From: Anaerolineales bacterium HSG24
Lineage (GTDB): Bacteria > Chloroflexota > Anaerolineae > 4572-78 > J111
Reading direction: 5' to 3'
Length of the DNA stretch: 64,000 nt
Assembly: GCA_030377895.1 (NCBI GenBank)
Contig: JAUCGB010000003.1
Location: forward strand, 1-64,000
Position 1 is the first letter of the stretch; each line of letters starts with the position of its first letter. Under the pieces are notes generated by a model, which searched no databases, was not told where the DNA came from, and saw nothing but the letters and a program-made list of their open reading frames with translations. This document shows positions 38,650-48,401 of the stretch, in pieces. The translations under genes were made by a program, and so were the position numbers.

Positions 38650-40275
38650 ATGAAAAATACGCAATTATTCTTACTGATTATTATGATTAGTATTCTAAAA
38701 TTACGCTATTTGCCCGATGCCAGCGCACAAACTCATCATGAGTTTAGCAGTGATCGCTTCGGCTTGACTCTCGACTATCCGGCGACGTGGCAGGTGTCGG
38801 AGAATCTGGGTCTGCTCGATTTTATCAATCCGGCCCATGTCAGCAATACTATCGAAGGGCCGATGATGGCGACCATCTCCATCAAGATGTTCGACAATCG
38901 AGAGCAACTATCGCTGGATGAGGCGGCTCAAGTGCTGTATCAGCAGGCCGCGTCGGTCAGCACGAGGCCCAATCAACTGGCGGTGGAGTCGTTATCACTG
39001 ACCAACCCGAATATCGATCAGGCGGTGGTTGTGCGAGGCATCCCCTCGGCGAACAGTGACTATTTTACTTTGATTGGCCTGAATGACAAACTCTATCTCT
39101 TGAGCCTGAATCTGGGCGATTTTGCTGAGGTGGAGGCGCAACAAACGGCCTACAACAAAACTCTGCTGGAGATGATTGAATCGCTCAGGTATCATCCAGC
39201 TAATTGGGGCGGGTATCCGCTTGATGAGCCGGTCTCGATTGCAGCCACCCGCATCGCCCACGAGTTTGTCTATCCCTTGGGCGACCCGCTTAAAACCAGT
39301 TGGCGACTGTTACGGGGATTTGATCATTTTTTTGATGATCCTCGCTATAACAGCTATCATGCCGCCGAGGATTGGTCTAATCCGAATGGCACGGCTGGTG
39401 AGCCAGTCTATGCGGTGGCCGACGGGGTGGTACGATATGCCACCTTTGCCAACTATCCGGGCGATGTGGTCATCGTCGAGCATCTTCTGCCGGATGAACG
39501 GATCTGGTTTTCTATGTATGGACACTTGGGTAGTCATGAGGTTAATCAAGGGGATGCGGTGGCACGAGGACAACGAATTGGTACAATCTATGATTGGCCT
39601 GATAATTCACACCTCCATTTTGAGATTCGTCAGTTTTTTATAGAAGATGAGATCAACGGGGAAAACTCGGCCTTGAGTCGGCATCGCCACTATCCGCCCG
39701 GGCCAGGATATTGGCCTGTTGGCACGTTCCGAGACAGTGACGAGCGTCCGCCGGATCGGGGGTGGGTCGAGCCTCGTGCCTTTATTATTGACCATAAACG
39801 GCCTGAGCCAATTACGACGACGGCCATGGTCGGGCAGGTGCGCCTGCAAGGTTTGAACAGTTATAGCGGCACGCTCGTCTCGTTGTATGATCAACCATGC
39901 GCCGAATTGGATGACCTCGTACTGACGACCAATCTTATCACCAGTACTGGTATCATCAGCAACAGGGCCGGTTTTTTTGAGCTATTACCACCACCGGACA
40001 TGACGGTCGGCTGTGTGCGAGTGCTTAAAAAGAATTTCTTGCACGGTGAAATTAATGCTCCCCCGAATGGGGATTTAGGCACGATTACTCTGTTGAATGG
40101 CGATTTGAACGGGGATAATATCATCAATATTTTCGACTTGGCCCTGATTTCAACCTATTACAAGACCGAGGAGATTACCTGCGACCTGAACAGCGATGGA
40201 CTGGTTAATCTGCTGGATGTGGTGTTGGTGGCGGGCAATTATCAGAAATCCGGGCCGATTCAGGTATGGGAATGA
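38650..40275 (+). CDS. Secreted M23 (LytM-type) metallopeptidase with dockerin-like C-terminus
   Basis: 541 residues. A signal peptide (1-26) is followed by a PsbP-like domain (FGLTLDYPATWQV). The M23 peptidase domain has zinc ligands His237 and Asp241 in YHAAEDW and the HLH motif at 321-323. It would cut peptidoglycan cross-links or other Gly-rich peptides. Residues about 390-470 form a small beta domain. The end carries two Ca-binding dockerin type I loops (GDLNGDNIINIFDLALI and DLNSDGLVNLLDVVLV). No cohesin was seen in the window. The metal-binding residues are intact. Confidence 0.88.
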   Translation: MKNTQLFLLIIMISILKLRYLPDASAQTHHEFSSDRFGLTLDYPATWQVSENLGLLDFINPAHVSNTIEGPMMATISIKMFDNREQLSLDEAAQVLYQQAASVSTRPNQLAVESLSLTNPNIDQAVVVRGIPSANSDYFTLIGLNDKLYLLSLNLGDFAEVEAQQTAYNKTLLEMIESLRYHPANWGGYPLDEPVSIAATRIAHEFVYPLGDPLKTSWRLLRGFDHFFDDPRYNSYHAAEDWSNPNGTAGEPVYAVADGVVRYATFANYPGDVVIVEHLLPDERIWFSMYGHLGSHEVNQGDAVARGQRIGTIYDWPDNSHLHFEIRQFFIEDEINGENSALSRHRHYPPGPGYWPVGTFRDSDERPPDRGWVEPRAFIIDHKRPEPITTTAMVGQVRLQGLNSYSGTLVSLYDQPCAELDDLVLTTNLITSTGIISNRAGFFELLPPPDMTVGCVRVLKKNFLHGEINAPPNGDLGTITLLNGDLNGDNIINIFDLALISTYYKTEEITCDLNSDGLVNLLDVVLVAGNYQKSGPIQVWE

Positions 40276-40379
40276 GGTGCGCTCAAATGCTTCGCTCTTT
40301 TTTGCAAAGACGGCCTCATTTGGAGTAAAATCACTGACCCTACCTTTTTCTTTGGTTATACATATTTAGCTCAAAATCG

Positions 40380-40406
40380 TTAGCACTCGATGGGTGAGAG
40401 TGCTAA
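40380..40406. promoter_or_regulatory. CIRCE element 1 (HrcA operator), exact consensus
   Basis: TTAGCACTC, nine bases, GAGTGCTAA: identical to the CIRCE consensus that the heat-shock repressor HrcA binds upstream of groESL and dnaK. No chaperone gene is in the window; the next genes on the + strand are the nuclease fragment and the CHAT proteins. Confidence 0.75.
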
Positions 40407-40507
40407 AAATAGTCTTTGGTGAAAATAATTTTACCAATTACATTAAATTTGCAGTAAATTCTTGCGATAAAATTACTTCCAGCATGTTATTTGGATTGCT
40501 TTTGATG

Positions 40508-40534
40508 TTAGTACTCTCGAAGTTAGAGTGCTGA
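40508..40534. promoter_or_regulatory. CIRCE element 2, one mismatch per arm
   Basis: TTAGTACTC, nine bases, GAGTGCTGA, 128 bp after the first site. The spacing arm to arm is that of CIRCE. Confidence 0.6.
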
Positions 40535-40641
40535 ATTAGAAAACCAAAGAAAGCGGTAGGGTCAGAAAAATTGCCATGTCAATTTAGACGAGGTAGTTTT
40601 TATTTTTTATAGCAAACTACACGGTATTTTTTATCATTAAA

Positions 40642-40756: not shown

Positions 40757-40978
40757 ATGCAAACTGTAACCCAAATCAACATTCTATCCGTTCAGGAGCA
40801 GGCCACCATCTACATCGACGGCCCCGACCACGATTCGATACAGGCCCGCGATGCCGACATAACCGAATGTTTGGAGAATCAGGGGTATTCATGTTTGCGT
40901 TTTAGCTACCGCAACCAAACCGACTGGCCGAACCTGTGTCGGGCGCATAGCTATCTGTTTGGGGAGGGGCGATCATGA
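40757..40978 (+). CDS. Small orphan PD-(D/E)xK/DUF559-like C-terminal fragment
   Basis: 73 residues. ATIYIDGPDHDSIQARDADI followed by LENQGYSCLRFSYR resembles the last part of VSR/DUF559-type nuclease domains as found at the end of some helicases, but the N-terminal half of the fold is missing. AAGGAT precedes the ATG, and the stop overlaps the CHAT start (ATGA), so it is probably translated and coupled. It is either a domain remnant or a small partner protein. Confidence 0.5.
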   Translation: MQTVTQINILSVQEQATIYIDGPDHDSIQARDADITECLENQGYSCLRFSYRNQTDWPNLCRAHSYLFGEGRS

Positions 40979-43900
40979 GAGTGGTTTGGCTGATTCTGCT
41001 GGTGTTTCTGGTGGGTGGGCAATCTGTTTTGGCCGCGCCAGTGGGGCAGGAGGATTGTGATGCACTGGAACAAAAAGCGGAAAATTTTTTTAATGAAGGC
41101 CTATTGACGGAGATGGTGGAGTATTTGCAAATCACTTTAATATGTTACCAAGAAATGAATGACCGCAGAAGTGAAGGAAGAATTCTCAATAATATGGGGG
41201 TGGTGTACTATCAACAAGAACTTTATGAAGAAGCTTTAGAGTTTTATCAGCAGGCCTTAGCCATTAGGCAAAAAGTGGGGGATAGAGAAGGAGAAGGTGA
41301 TACCCTGAACAATATTGGTGGAGTGTATATCTATCAAGAACATTATGAAAAAGCATTAGAGTCTTATAAGCAAACCTTAGCCATTAGACAGGAAGTGGAA
41401 GATAGGGTTGGAGAAGGAGATGCTCTTAATAATATCGGAGTGATATATCATAATCAGAAGTACTATAGAGAAGCATTAGAGCTTTATCAACAAGCATTGA
41501 CAATTAGTCAGGAGGTTGGGGATAGAGATGGTGATATTCTTTATTTTTATAACATCGGAAAGATACATTTTGCTCAAAAAAAACATATATTGGCTTTAGA
41601 AATGTATGAACAAGCTCTAGAAATTAGTCAGGAAGTTGGGGATAGAGTTAGAGAAGGAGATATACTCAACAACATCGGCACAGTCTATTTTGAACAAAAC
41701 AACTATGAGTTATCCTTAGAGTTTTATCAACAAGCCTTAGCAATTAGGCAAAAGGTGAAAGATAGAAATGGTGAAGATAGCACTCTTAACAATATTGGTG
41801 GGGTGTACTTTCATCAAGGACGTTACGAAGATGCCCTAGAACTTTATCAGCAGGTTTTAGGGGTTAGGCAAGAGATAGGGGATAAAGAAGGTGAAGGTAG
41901 TACCCTTAACAACATTGGTGGAGTATATCATCGTCAAGGTCGTTATGAGGATGCCTTGAGCGCTTTTCAGCAAGCCTTAGCCATTAGTCAGGAAGTTGGG
42001 GATAGAGAAGGTGAAGGTAGTACCCTTAACAACATTGGTGGAGTATATCATCGTCAAGGTCGTTATGAGGATGCCTTGAGCGCTTTTCAGCAAGCCTTAG
42101 CCACTAGGCAGGAAGTTGGGGATAGAGAAGGTGAAGGTAGAAGTCTCCATAGCATTGGAGCAATATATTATCTTCAGGAACAGTACAGAGAATCTTTAGG
42201 AAAATTTCAGAAAGCCCTAGTTATTAATCGTGAGGGAGGGGATAAAGCTGGGGAAGCCACAAACCTCACCCATATTGGATGGGTGTATCTTAAACAAGAA
42301 GATTATGAGTTAGCTTTAAAAAGTATTCAACAAAGCATCAATCTGTTTGATGAGATACGATCCACTGCTGGCAATGACCAAGCTCGTTCCAGTTACATTG
42401 CCCAATACGCTGATTTATACGACAGTACCGTTTTCATTTACCACCTACTCAACCAACCCGACCAAGCCTTCTTCACCAGCGAACAAAACCGCGCCCGTTC
42501 CTTTATGGATGCCCTGGCTACTGGTCATGTCCAACTTGATGACAACGACATGGTTGACCTCTACAACCAAGAACAAAGCCTCTACAGCCAACGGCAGGCG
42601 GTGCAGGATAATCTGGCAAAAGCCAAAGCGAGAGAGGATACCGACCTTATCAGCGAGCTAGAAAGCCAACTAGCCGAGTTAGAGGAACAATATTCAGCCA
42701 TCCAAGCCGACATTCAAGCCAGAGACGACCAACTGAGCGACCTTGTGCCCGGACGCACCTCCGATAATCTGTTGACCGTGGAAAAGGTGCAACCCTATCT
42801 CTCCACCGACAGTACCTTGGTGATGTACCATGTGTTGGAGGAAAACGTGCTGGTCTTCCTGCTGACCCCAACCAGTTTTGAGACGGTTCTGCTGGAGGTC
42901 AGCCCCGACGACCTAAAACAAACCATCCAACAATTCCGCGAATTCAACGATGTTGAAGCCTCACTGGTGCAACTGCATAAGTGGCTGATTGTCCCTCTGA
43001 AAGATAAGTTGACCACACCCCACCTAACCATCATTCCCCATCAAACCTTACATTATCTGCCCTTCGCCGCTCTAACTGATGGCGAGAAATATCTGATCGA
43101 TGAATATACCCTAACCACCTTGCCGAGTGCCAGTGTGTTGCCTTACGTGCTCGATTCAGCGAAGAATCTACCCGCAAGTTCAGAACTTGCGGGTAGCTCG
43201 GTGTTAGTTTTGGGCAACCCGACCACTGGCGATTATGATGGCTTGGGGTCGCTCCCCTACGCCGAGGCGGAAGCCCAAACCATCGCCGATTTGTACGGTA
43301 TTGAACCATTGCTCAACGAGCAGGCCACCGAAACCGCCCTCCGTGAGCGGGCTGAACAGGCCAGCATCATCCATCTGGCCGCGCATGGCAAATACAATCC
43401 GGTGGCTCCGCTCAGTTCCCTCATCGCCCTCGCTCCCGATGAGCAGAACGACGGCTGGCTGACCGTCGGTGAAGTGTTCGGTCTGCCCCTCGGCCAAACC
43501 GAGTTGGTCGTCCTCAGTGCTTGCGAATCCCATGTCGGTCAGGCCGGACTCCGCACTGGCTTGGGAGTCTCGGCGGGGGATGATATTGTGGGGCTAAATC
43601 GGGCCTTCATCTTTGCCGGTGCGCCCAGCATCATGTCCAGCCTATGGCCGGTGGAGGATGAAGCCACCAGTCAGCTCATGACCGAGTTTTACAGTAACCT
43701 CCGCAACGGCCTGGGCAAAGCGGAATCGCTACGCCAAGCGCAACTGACCATGCGAGAGGCGTACCCCAATCCCTACTACTGGGCCGCTTTCGTGCTGGCC
43801 GGAGATGGGGGGGAGTCGGCTGAACAGCCTATCGCTACAGCTACTTTGCAAAAGAGTACCTCAACCCCGGCTCCAGTTGCTCAAGCTACACCAAAAACAG

Positions 43901-44046
43901 AAGCTCCGACCATCACCACCCCACCTATCGAGGCGGATAACTCTGGCGGGTGGTTGTGGTACTGCTGTTGTTTGGGCTGTCTGTGGCCGGCCTCGCTGAT
44001 GGGGGTGTTTATCGCATGGCAACGGGTGATGATGGGAGGTGTGTGA
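40975..44046 (+). CDS. Exported TPR-CHAT protein 1
   Basis: 1023 residues. The signal peptide (1-21, FLVGGQSVLAAP) is followed by about ten TPR repeats of 40 residues (kinesin light chain type), residues 40-450, and a linker coiled coil. The CHAT caspase-like protease domain (about 680-935) has His804 in HLAAHGKY and Cys850 in LSACESH. A Thr/Pro linker and a transmembrane helix end the protein, so it is probably membrane-anchored outside the cytoplasm. Two neighbouring TPR units near 41887-42105 are almost identical at the DNA level. A REP-like palindrome is translated at 43168-43196 (residues about 732-741). The TPR part is AT-richer than the CHAT part. Confidence 0.92.
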   Translation: MRVVWLILLVFLVGGQSVLAAPVGQEDCDALEQKAENFFNEGLLTEMVEYLQITLICYQEMNDRRSEGRILNNMGVVYYQQELYEEALEFYQQALAIRQKVGDREGEGDTLNNIGGVYIYQEHYEKALESYKQTLAIRQEVEDRVGEGDALNNIGVIYHNQKYYREALELYQQALTISQEVGDRDGDILYFYNIGKIHFAQKKHILALEMYEQALEISQEVGDRVREGDILNNIGTVYFEQNNYELSLEFYQQALAIRQKVKDRNGEDSTLNNIGGVYFHQGRYEDALELYQQVLGVRQEIGDKEGEGSTLNNIGGVYHRQGRYEDALSAFQQALAISQEVGDREGEGSTLNNIGGVYHRQGRYEDALSAFQQALATRQEVGDREGEGRSLHSIGAIYYLQEQYRESLGKFQKALVINREGGDKAGEATNLTHIGWVYLKQEDYELALKSIQQSINLFDEIRSTAGNDQARSSYIAQYADLYDSTVFIYHLLNQPDQAFFTSEQNRARSFMDALATGHVQLDDNDMVDLYNQEQSLYSQRQAVQDNLAKAKAREDTDLISELESQLAELEEQYSAIQADIQARDDQLSDLVPGRTSDNLLTVEKVQPYLSTDSTLVMYHVLEENVLVFLLTPTSFETVLLEVSPDDLKQTIQQFREFNDVEASLVQLHKWLIVPLKDKLTTPHLTIIPHQTLHYLPFAALTDGEKYLIDEYTLTTLPSASVLPYVLDSAKNLPASSELAGSSVLVLGNPTTGDYDGLGSLPYAEAEAQTIADLYGIEPLLNEQATETALRERAEQASIIHLAAHGKYNPVAPLSSLIALAPDEQNDGWLTVGEVFGLPLGQTELVVLSACESHVGQAGLRTGLGVSAGDDIVGLNRAFIFAGAPSIMSSLWPVEDEATSQLMTEFYSNLRNGLGKAESLRQAQLTMREAYPNPYYWAAFVLAGDGGESAEQPIATATLQKSTSTPAPVAQATPKTEAPTITTPPIEADNSGGWLWYCCCLGCLWPASLMGVFIAWQRVMMGGV
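43168..43196 (+). repeat. REP-like palindrome (core A) inside TPR-CHAT 1
   Basis: CTACCCGCAAGTTC and its inverse GAACTTGCGGGTAG. The same sequence forms the core of intergenic family C elements (5198, 38555, 59672). Here it is read through as NLPASSELAGSS. Confidence 0.9.
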
Positions 44047-47000
44047 TGACAATTCGTTTGGTTTTGTGGGTGGTGTTGGTGTTTCTGGTGGGTGGGCAAT
44101 CTGTTTTGGCCGCGCCAGTGGGGCAGGAGGATGATCCAGCGGAGTTGTGTGCTGAGGGGGTTGAGTTGTTTGATAAGGGGCAATATGAAGAGGCGTTGCC
44201 TTTGTTAGAGGCAGGCTTTAAGGGGAGAGAAAATGGTAATTTTGTCCATTCTGACGATGAGGCAGTATGTGCAGTGATTTTGGGGTCACTATATCATCTC
44301 AATAATAATTTAACAGATGCACTGAAGGCTTATCAAGTCGCCCTAAAAATTTTTCAAACTGGTAACAACCAAGAAATCCAAATGTTAATTTTTACCCATA
44401 TTGGAAGGATATATTACCAACAAGGACGTTATGAAAATGCATTAGGTACTTTTCAACAAGCCCTAGAAATTAGCCTTAAGATAAATAATCGAATTGAAGA
44501 GATAGAAATCCTTACTTATATTGGGAGGATATATCATCACCAAGAGCATTATGGAAATGCCTTAGATAGCTTTCAGCAAGCCTTAGAGGTTAGTCTTGAG
44601 GTGAACAATCGAACTGGAGAGGGTGAAATTTTTTACTATATTGGAGCAGTATATAAGAATCAGAAACAATATAATGTGGCTTTGTATAACTATAAAAAAT
44701 CTTTGGTAATTATGCAGGAGACAGGAAATTTAGCTGGTGAAGGTGATACCCTCTATGATATGGGTGTGGTGTATGAAAGCCAAGGACAATATGAAGAAGC
44801 GTTAGATAAGTATTATCAAGCCTTAGTCATTACACAAGAGATGGGGCATCAAACTGGTCAAGGCATAATTCTGAACAATATCGGATTGGTGTATGAAAAT
44901 CAAGAACGATATGACGAGGCATTGGAGAAATATCAACAAGTCTTACTTATTAAGCGAGAAGTAGGGGATTTAGCTGGAGAGGAAAGAACACTCGACAATA
45001 TCGGAAGAATATATTTTACTCAGGGACGTTATGAAAATGCTTTGGATAGCTTTCAAAAAGCTCTATTGATTACATGGGAAACGGAGAATCAAACAAGAGA
45101 AGGAGATATCCTTAATAATATTGGCGTACTATATGAGGCTCAGGAATTTTATGAAGATGCCTTAGAGATGTTTAAACAGGCATTAGAGATTAGACGAAAA
45201 TTGGGTAATCAAATCAGTGAGGCAGAAACTCTCTACAATATCGGTGTACTGTATGAGGCTCAAGAACTTTATGAGGATGCCTTAAAAAATTATCAACAAG
45301 CCCTATCAATTAGGCGAGAAGTGGGAGACCGAACTGAAGAAGGAAAAACTCTCGGCAATATTGGTACTATATATTATGTTCAAGGACAATACCAAGAAGC
45401 CTTAGAGAGCTATCAACAAGCCCTATCAATTAGGCGAGAAGTGGGAGACCGAATAGGAGAAGGAGAAACTCTTGGCAATATTGGCACTGTGTATCATTCT
45501 CAAAGTCGCTATGAGTTAGCCTTAGAGAGCTATCAACAAGCCCTATCAGTTATACGGGATGCAGGAGATCGAATAGGAGAAGGGAAAACCCTCGGCAATA
45601 TCGGTACTGTATATTACCATCAAGGTCATTACGATGAAGCTATAAAATACTACGAAAAAATTTTAGTGATTAATCAAGAAACATCAGATAAAAGCGGAGA
45701 GGCGTTTTTTTATAATAATATTGGGGTGATGTATGAACATCAGGGGCGTTATAAAGAATCCTTAGAAAATTTTCAAAAAGCCTTAATAATTAGTCAAAAG
45801 ATAGGAGATAAAATTGGTGAAGCAAAAACTCTCAATAATATAGGTACGTCATATCATTCTCAAGGTCATTATGAAGAAGCCTTAGAAATGTATCAACAAG
45901 CCTTAGTGATTAACAAAAAAACAGGAAATCAAAGCGGAAAAAGTTATACTTTCCACAATATAGGTACAGTGCATCATTCTCAAAGTCGTTATGAGGAAGC
46001 CTTAAAAATGTATCGACAGGCCCTAATGATTACACAAGAAATTGGTGATCGATATAAAGAAGGTGTGATTATTGGTAATATTGGTAGGGTATATTTTGAT
46101 CAACATCGTTATCAAGAGGCATTAGACAAGTATGAGCAAGCATTAAAAATTATAAGAGAAATCGGTAATCGGTTTTCTGAAGGTAATATGTTACATGGTA
46201 TTGGGTTAGTGTATTTTGTTCAAGGTCGTTATGATGAAGCATTAGAGATGTATCAACAAGCTTTAATAATTATACAGGAAGCAGAAAATCAAGTTGGCGA
46301 GGGTGAGATTCTCAACGACATAGGTTTTGTGTATTGGAAATTGAAACAGTACGATAATGCTTTGAATAACTTACAACAAGCCTTAACTCTTGGGGAAAAC
46401 ACAGTTGATTTAAGTGATACATTGAATAATATTGGGCTAGTGTATTCTGATCAGGGACGTTATAAAGAGGCTTTAGAGAGCTTTCAGATAGCTTTAAAAA
46501 TTGGACGAGAGATAGAAAACCCACTTAACGAAAGTTATGCACTCAACAACATTGGAAGAGTGTTTTATTTGCAAGGTCATGATGAAGAAGCTTTGGAACA
46601 TTATCAAAAAGCCCTAGTAATTCATTTAGAAATTGGGGATATTCATCGTCAAGGGGAAACACTCTACAATATTGGAGTGATATATTATGGGCAAGGTCGT
46701 TATAAAGACGTTTTAGGGTATAATCAACAAGTCTTAACTCTGTTTGATAAGATACGAACCACAATGGGCAATGATCTAGCTCGTTCCAGTTTCATTGCCC
46801 AATATGTTTCTATATATAACCTATCCATCACCCTCCACCACCAACTCAATCAGCCAAAGGAAGCCTTCTTCACCAGCGAACAAAGCCGTGCCCGTTCCTT
46901 TATGGATGCCCTCGCCACCGGCCATGTCCAACTGGATGACAGCGACATGGTTGCCCTCTATAACCAAGAACAGTCCCTCTACAGCCAACGGCAGGCGGCG

Positions 47001-48401
47001 CAGGATAATCTGGCTCAGGCCAAAGCCAGAGAAGATACTGACCTCATCAGTAACCTTGAAACTCAACTGGCCGAGTTAGAGGAGCAATACACAGCCATCC
47101 AAGCCGACATCCAAGCCAGAGGCGACCAACTGAGCGACCTCATGCCCGGACGCACCTCCGATAATCTGCTAACAGTGGAAAAAGTCCAACCCTACCTCTC
47201 CGCCGACAGTACCTTGGTGATGTACCATGTGTTGGAAGAAAACCTGCTGGTCTTCCTGTTGACCCCGACCAGCTTTGAGACGGTTCTGCTAGAGGTCAGC
47301 CCCGACGACCTCAAACAAACCATCCAACAATTCCGCGACTTCGCCGATGTGGATGCCCCGCATCCGGCTCCGTTGGTTCAACTCCATGAGTGGTTGATAA
47401 ACCCGCTCAAAGATAAACTGACCACGCCCCACCTAACCATCATTCCCCACCAAACCCTGCATTACCTGCCCTTCGCCGCCCTGACCGATGGGGAAAAATA
47501 TCTGGTCGATGAGTACACCCTAACCACGCTACCGAGTGCCAGTGTATTGCCCTACGTGCTCGATTCGGCGAAGAACCTACCCGCAAGTTCTGAACTTGCG
47601 GGTAGCTCCATGCTCATTTTGGGCAACCCGACCACCGGCGATTATGATGCCACCGCCTCCCTCGCCACCAATCGAGATGGCTTGGGGTCGCTCCCCTTCG
47701 CCGAGGCCGAAGCCCAAACCATCGCCGATTTGTATGGCATTGAACCGCTACTCAAGGAGCAAGCCACCGAAACCGCCCTCCGTGAGCAGGCTGAACAGGC
47801 CAGCATCATCCATCTGGCCGCGCATGGCAAATACAATCCGGTGGCTCCGCTCAGTTCCCTCATCGCCCTCGCTCCCGATGAGCAGAACGACGGCTGGCTA
47901 ACCGTCGGCGAGGTGTTCGGTTTACCCCTCGACCAGACCCAGTTGGTCGTCCTCAGTGCCTGCGAATCCCATGTCGGTCAGGCCGGACTCCGCACCGGCT
48001 TGGGGGTCTCTGCCGGGGATGACATTGTGGGGCTAAATCGGGCCTTCATCTTTGCTGGTGCGCCCAGCATCATGTCCAGCCTATGGCCGGTGGAGGATGA
48101 AGCCACCAGCCAACTGATGACTGAGTTCTACAGTAACCTCCGCAACGGCATGGGCAAAGCGGAGGCTCTGCGCCAAGCGCAACTCACCGTGCGGGAGGAA
48201 TATCCCAATCCCTACTACTGGGCCGCGTTCGTGCTGGCCGGAGATGGGGGGGAGTCGGCTGAGGTTACGCCACAAACGGAGGCCCCAGCTATTACCACGC
48301 CACCGATTGAGGGGGATAACTCTGGCGGGTGGTGTTTATGGCCTGCTTTGTTGATGATGGGGCTGGTTGTGGTATGGCAACGGAGGATGATGGGGGAATG
48401 A
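44046..48401 (+). CDS. Exported TPR-CHAT protein 2
   Basis: 1451 residues. It starts one base into the stop of the previous gene (TGATG). Signal peptide and next residues (VFLVGGQSVLAAPVGQED) are the same as in TPR-CHAT 1, showing duplication. About 21 TPR units of 40 residues (120 bp) span 44220-46740. The CHAT domain has His1260 and Cys1306 in the same contexts, and the REP-like palindrome is present at 47577-47605. The C-terminus has a transmembrane helix. A longer frame from 43950 was rejected because it begins inside the previous gene, before the signal peptide. Likely role: scaffold plus protease at the cell envelope (inference). Confidence 0.92.
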   Translation: MTIRLVLWVVLVFLVGGQSVLAAPVGQEDDPAELCAEGVELFDKGQYEEALPLLEAGFKGRENGNFVHSDDEAVCAVILGSLYHLNNNLTDALKAYQVALKIFQTGNNQEIQMLIFTHIGRIYYQQGRYENALGTFQQALEISLKINNRIEEIEILTYIGRIYHHQEHYGNALDSFQQALEVSLEVNNRTGEGEIFYYIGAVYKNQKQYNVALYNYKKSLVIMQETGNLAGEGDTLYDMGVVYESQGQYEEALDKYYQALVITQEMGHQTGQGIILNNIGLVYENQERYDEALEKYQQVLLIKREVGDLAGEERTLDNIGRIYFTQGRYENALDSFQKALLITWETENQTREGDILNNIGVLYEAQEFYEDALEMFKQALEIRRKLGNQISEAETLYNIGVLYEAQELYEDALKNYQQALSIRREVGDRTEEGKTLGNIGTIYYVQGQYQEALESYQQALSIRREVGDRIGEGETLGNIGTVYHSQSRYELALESYQQALSVIRDAGDRIGEGKTLGNIGTVYYHQGHYDEAIKYYEKILVINQETSDKSGEAFFYNNIGVMYEHQGRYKESLENFQKALIISQKIGDKIGEAKTLNNIGTSYHSQGHYEEALEMYQQALVINKKTGNQSGKSYTFHNIGTVHHSQSRYEEALKMYRQALMITQEIGDRYKEGVIIGNIGRVYFDQHRYQEALDKYEQALKIIREIGNRFSEGNMLHGIGLVYFVQGRYDEALEMYQQALIIIQEAENQVGEGEILNDIGFVYWKLKQYDNALNNLQQALTLGENTVDLSDTLNNIGLVYSDQGRYKEALESFQIALKIGREIENPLNESYALNNIGRVFYLQGHDEEALEHYQKALVIHLEIGDIHRQGETLYNIGVIYYGQGRYKDVLGYNQQVLTLFDKIRTTMGNDLARSSFIAQYVSIYNLSITLHHQLNQPKEAFFTSEQSRARSFMDALATGHVQLDDSDMVALYNQEQSLYSQRQAAQDNLAQAKAREDTDLISNLETQLAELEEQYTAIQADIQARGDQLSDLMPGRTSDNLLTVEKVQPYLSADSTLVMYHVLEENLLVFLLTPTSFETVLLEVSPDDLKQTIQQFRDFADVDAPHPAPLVQLHEWLINPLKDKLTTPHLTIIPHQTLHYLPFAALTDGEKYLVDEYTLTTLPSASVLPYVLDSAKNLPASSELAGSSMLILGNPTTGDYDATASLATNRDGLGSLPFAEAEAQTIADLYGIEPLLKEQATETALREQAEQASIIHLAAHGKYNPVAPLSSLIALAPDEQNDGWLTVGEVFGLPLDQTQLVVLSACESHVGQAGLRTGLGVSAGDDIVGLNRAFIFAGAPSIMSSLWPVEDEATSQLMTEFYSNLRNGMGKAEALRQAQLTVREEYPNPYYWAAFVLAGDGGESAEVTPQTEAPAITTPPIEGDNSGGWCLWPALLMMGLVVVWQRRMMGE
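47577..47605 (+). repeat. REP-like palindrome (core A) inside TPR-CHAT 2
   Basis: Same position in the protein as in paralogue 1, differing at one loop base (CTGAAC for CAGAAC). Confidence 0.9.

Follow-up and report, generated by a model that had tools for sequence, protein, structure and literature searches.

A dispersed MITE-like repeat carrying two CIRCE operators may bring new targets to HrcA in an Anaerolineales bacterium

Results

The window, the whole 64,000-nt stretch of DNA that was analysed, contains a 232-bp MITE-like repeat with a CIRCE operator near each end. The repeat is present in at least six dispersed copies in its own genome, which also encodes the repressor HrcA. Judged from its sequence, this mobile element may hand HrcA new targets. 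What is new is that a dispersed repeat family bears operators belonging to a repressor dedicated to stress; the regulatory effect of this family is putative. The features of the region are as follows.

38650..40275, + strand: gene upstream of the element, with an 80% identical relative in the sister species G011
40334..40565, + strand: whole MITE-like element, 232 bp; the homology of six dispersed copies ends here
40334..40357, + strand: left TIR CTGACCCTACCTTTTTCTTTGGTT, an inverted repeat; the same TIR is found in other copies
40380..40406, no strand: CIRCE 1, HrcA operator without mismatches, separated from the left TIR by 22 bp
40407..40507, no strand: spacer between the operators, its centre variable among copies; no promoter beating shuffles on either strand
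40508..40534, no strand: CIRCE 2, each arm with one mismatch, separated from the right TIR by 7 bp
40542..40565, - strand: right TIR, reading CTGACCCTACCGCTTTCTTTGGTT on the - strand, 22/24 identical to the TIR on contig C37
40757..40978, + strand: 73-aa DUF559 fragment, first ORF past the element, neighbour of the window copy (C139)
40975..44046, + strand: TPR-CHAT protein gene (PF12770, E 2.4e-69), an incidental neighbour of the C139 copy

By their sequence, both CIRCE operators are genuine. CIRCE 1 (40380-40406) fits TTAGCACTC-N9-GAGTGCTAA at 18 of 18 arm positions with 0 mismatches and CIRCE 2 (40508-40534) at 16 of 18, its 2 mismatches falling one in each arm, which is how the earlier note had read the two palindromes. 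At up to 3 mismatches only 0.03 matches are expected per window, and two matches occurred in none of 100 shuffles. A perfect CIRCE is thus far above chance expectation, and chance palindromes are ruled out. The window contains no further CIRCE at up to 3 mismatches, nor at up to 5. The operators had been described as lying inside an inverted repeat with 23-bp arms; the inverted repeat is there, but its arms (40334-40357 and 40542-40565, 92% complementary) are 24 nt each, with one more outer base on either side. As a single-stranded RNA, the 232-base element folds with a z of -9.4 (+ strand) or -8.2 (- strand) against shuffles, a strong fold that mostly restates the inverted repeats and palindromes.

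A search of the element's own assembly (4.04 Mb, 206 contigs, 75% complete, 0.3% contaminated) for further copies of the structure returned six, which are 92-98% identical. Three are full (C139, the window copy; C100; C173), and three are partial, C106 being without the left end and C22 and C53 without the right end. In the alignment, homology among the six stops exactly at the TIR ends and the flanks are unrelated. The suggestion that the operator pair may have travelled as a unit is borne out by these copies, and their dispersal rules out that the pair is a native CHAT operon promoter present once in the genome. CIRCE 1 is retained in 6/6 copies, with one arm change in C22; CIRCE 2 is present in four, and in C106 it fits at 17/18 arm positions. 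The element is absent from all 11 other genomes of its family of 12 and was not found in plasmids, and the two-CIRCE geometry was not found in viral contigs.

Several properties of a MITE are seen in this element: it is short (232 bp), is without an ORF, has 24-bp TIRs and is dispersed in six copies whose ends coincide sharply with the TIRs. An 8-bp target-site duplication is not among them, as 5, 2 and 3 of 8 bases match at the three full copies, and because of these missing duplications we call the element MITE-like rather than a MITE. The C100 copy cuts short a two-component-propeller-like gene, which does not resume beyond the copy. The C53 copy abuts what look like the final codons left over from an upstream gene copy that was lost, and the sequence of this junction suggests that a third AAA_35-domain gene copy was lost by deletion. 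As read from such junctions, element copies tend to be found where DNA has been rearranged; at these copies, a recent and clean transposition is unsupported. We do not claim a recent clean insertion, because the full copies are without duplications and several copies lie at rearrangements. An exchange of flanks between copies was considered as the reason why duplications are missing; on inspection by eye, the left flank of no copy fits the right flank of another. An empty site was also sought in G011, where the relative of the upstream gene precedes a different gene, so that the junction is unreadable. The neighbour of the C173 copy has no clear orthologue in G011. On C53, two AAA_35-domain genes stand in tandem and are nearly identical (L076:1557-4866).

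The TIR of the element differs at 2-3 positions from the TIRs of a larger MITE group. Related TIRs, defined by a degenerate pattern with no more than 2 mismatches, number 64 in this genome and 32 in G011, and none was found in the remaining genomes of the family of 12. Most of those that were read bound a MITE of ~190 bp. Where both ends of the related MITEs were found, 13/19 carry perfect 8-bp flanking duplications, and for this reason the TIR type is taken to mark transposing DNA. The CIRCE element is like these CTGATGCTAAC / CTCACCCTAAC MITEs of the genus in its 24-bp TIRs and in length (232 versus ~190 bp); they have a different interior, no CIRCE and mostly 8-bp duplications, whereas the CIRCE element is without duplications. 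The TIRs of the larger group read CTGATGCTAAC / CTCACCCTAAC...TCTTTGGTT, and dozens of copies per species are present in the two sister species. Inverted repeats (ACACTACAACGGATACTT) lie just inside these TIRs (L036-L050 in this genome; L059-L071 in G011).

A candidate for the source of transposase lies at a contig end. A 357-aa ORF on C37 (L028:1502-2575) has its stop codon inside a TIR, the one that resembles the right TIR of the CIRCE element; the other end of the C37 unit is unassembled. The ORF gives weak matches to IS256, IS1249 and MULE transposase models. This divergent IS256/MULE-like transposase ORF is likely part of an autonomous partner. An 8-bp duplication would fit an IS256-like transposase.

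Classical CIRCE/HrcA sites stand before hrcA-grpE-dnaK-dnaJ and groESL. The genome has one hrcA (PF01628, E 4e-43), the first gene of hrcA-grpE-dnaK-dnaJ (the latter three named from their sequences), with TTGACT-17-TATCAT and a perfect CIRCE preceding the hrcA start codon. The lack of an hrcA gene, which the earlier note had named as evidence against its reading, is therefore not the case, and orphan operators without a repressor are ruled out. That CIRCE, on C108, is the sole one in the genome outside the element copies at up to 3 mismatches, so that about ten element-borne sites compare with one at hrcA; no CIRCE-bearing groESL was seen in the 75% complete assembly. Near-perfect CIRCE (up to 1 mismatch) number eight in this genome, the highest count among 396 genomes of the class, in which the runner-up has 5 and most have 0-3, and the count of eight is due to the element copies. 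Derivation of the element from the hrcA promoter is unsupported, as the CIRCE spacers differ. As the repressor is present, and judged from sequence identity with CIRCE, HrcA very likely binds the CIRCE sites of the element.

In the window, the genes next to the operators had been read as TPR-CHAT genes. CHAT genes do follow, with the second TPR-CHAT gene beginning at 43950, but the 73-aa DUF559 fragment comes immediately next. The two adjacent TPR-CHAT genes (40975-48401) have nearly identical signal-like starts (FLVGGQSVLAAPVGQED), and from their sequences they are apparently a tandem duplication. The other copies have quite different surroundings. At C100, a response-regulator histidine kinase gene starts ~105 nt beyond CIRCE 1. 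The C173 copy lies between divergent genes: a response-regulator/kinase/LuxR protein starts 26 bp beyond one end of the copy, and past the opposite end is a small ORF. The C106 copy lies two bases past the stop of a P-type-ATPase-like gene and precedes an AMP-ligase-like gene, both named from sequence without a family search. At C53, an AAA_35-domain gene starts 33 bp past the element end, and near C22 is a transposase-like ORF that has no Pfam match. No chaperone gene adjoins the element at any of the six copies.

The idea of the CHAT genes as a special target is not upheld: the genes beside the remaining five copies are unrelated to them, and the CHAT cluster is just one of the six unrelated settings in which the element occurs. 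A dedicated role of the operator pair in heat-shock control of the CHAT operon draws on the distance of 191 bp from the element end to the first ORF of that cluster. We consider it highly improbable in view of the five further copies, of G011, where the relative of the upstream gene is followed by a kinase gene and by neither the element nor CHAT genes, and of the stretch between the element and the CHAT operon, in which no promoter scored above shuffles. Of the circumstances that the earlier note had counted against itself, many copies at unrelated sites without a heat response, one half is found: the copies do sit at unrelated sites.

Variation among the copies is confined to the central 74 bp, and the end regions, including the CIRCE sites, are conserved. 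Of the non-CIRCE interior columns 27/130 vary, 25 of these at 40412-40479. Compared with this whole remaining interior, the CIRCE columns (3/54 variable) give a Fisher p of 0.007. The signal vanishes when only the other end-proximal interior (2/56 variable) is used, and selection on CIRCE was rejected on this basis; the operators are no better conserved than their end-proximal neighbours. The conserved ends and variable centre fit regulation of neighbouring genes or gating of transposition, without telling the two apart. With gating, HrcA near both ends would mask the TIRs or hold the ends inactive, and the element would transpose only when stress frees HrcA. The placement of the operators close to the left and right TIRs (22 and 7 bp away), the conservation of the CIRCE-bearing end regions and the inverted repeats that related MITEs likewise have just inside their TIRs all speak for it. 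However, the related MITE groups transpose without CIRCE, no autonomous element carrying CIRCE was found in our search, and the full CIRCE copies are without target duplications. We hold gating to be improbable and place it third.

Discussion

Bacterial regulons are usually pictured as growing one site at a time. If a repeat brought along ready-made operators for a dedicated repressor, its transposition would enlarge the regulon, and HrcA makes a clean case since its regulon normally comprises few chaperone operons, as reflected in the 0-3 near-perfect CIRCE of most class genomes. The reading that we place first, and to which we give an even chance, is that the element is a short, non-autonomous MITE-like repeat whose CIRCE near each end adds its neighbours to HrcA control. 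In unstressed cells, HrcA would occupy the CIRCE sites of the element, and heat or protein misfolding would free it from them, just as it does from ordinary CIRCE. If a gene follows closely on a copy, transcription that begins within the element or runs through it would be reduced by the bound HrcA. The gene beside the copy would thereby join the heat-shock regulon passively, with no host benefit implied.

Regulation of neighbours is plausible where gene starts are close, and the element ends at C173 and C53, 26 and 33 bp before start codons, count in favour of this first reading, together with the perfect CIRCE, the six sharp-ended copies, the TIR type shared with transposing MITEs and with the C37 transposase ORF, the hrcA operon and its CIRCE, the high CIRCE count, the retention of the operators and the native htpG/clpB region of like spacing. 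Copies close to gene starts are expected of intergenic insertions, and position alone is no proof of regulation. Two observations argue against the function: no promoter in the element, on either strand, or before the CHAT operon beats shuffles, and the CIRCE columns are no more conserved than the other end-proximal interior. The missing 8-bp duplications at the three full copies also weigh against the first reading. The same shortage of promoters close to the CIRCE sites favours a second reading, which treats the operators as cargo or a decoy: HrcA would bind them without any response from a neighbour, and at most free HrcA would fall, leaving the chaperones slightly derepressed. The neighbours of the copies, which share no theme and include no chaperone, and the ratio of about ten element-borne sites to one at hrcA agree with it. 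CIRCE is intact in nearly all copies despite the diverged centre, and two gene starts lie less than 35 bp from an element end, both of which count against it. We judge cargo or decoy unlikely, behind neighbour regulation and ahead of transposition gating. A wider proposal, that a mobile element rewires the heat-shock regulon or is itself gated by HrcA, with HrcA near both ends keeping the element and its neighbours silent until stress frees them together, is tentative and in our view rather doubtful.

With the classical sites the element shares the 9-N9-9 palindrome, perfect at site 1, and a genome in which hrcA is itself preceded by a CIRCE. Unlike them, its operators are on a dispersed repeat, two per element, away from chaperone genes and without a clear promoter; a classical CIRCE would lie after or over a chaperone promoter, and here no promoter scores above shuffles and no chaperone gene adjoins. 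IHF is a general DNA-bending protein. The Correia elements of Neisseria offer a functional analogy, both being short TIR-bounded repeats with the binding site of a host protein. Correia elements have an IHF site and outward promoters, whereas the present element has dedicated stress-repressor sites, other TIRs and no promoters that were recognised. Their IHF site is the known precedent for a MITE-borne protein-binding site, and one Correia copy has been shown to affect mtrCDE (PMC10969869; PMC2229807). A 2024 review of prokaryotic MITEs was found to mention, for DNA-binding proteins, IHF sites alone (PMC10969869). No paper combining CIRCE, HrcA and MITE was found in the open literature searched.

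A divergent heat-shock promoter caught between TIRs may be the ancestor of the operator pair. A scan of ~85,000 species, from which the organism's own records were possibly left out, gave one match to the two-CIRCE spacing, in an uncultured Clostridia (CALWZE010000040.1, 2230-2376 of L101), where two perfect CIRCE lie between divergent genes reading as htpG and clpB. The spacing is nearly equal, 120 there versus 128 here from start to start; the htpG/clpB region is a single native locus between chaperone genes, with no TIRs seen. By analogy, it could serve as a model for how the operator pair arose.

CIRCE away from chaperone genes are found in both sister species, given the copies in this genome and two sites in G011. 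On C131 of G011 (L080:870-1106), a perfect and a 4-mismatch CIRCE lie inside a different inverted repeat (22 nt, two mismatches, ~236 bp overall), which has no homology to the element beyond CIRCE and its immediate borders; mobility of this structure is unsupported, as it is single copy. On C119 of G011 (L091:2644-2671), a truncated copy of the common MITE type lies ~70 bp from a lone perfect CIRCE, which no chaperone gene adjoins.
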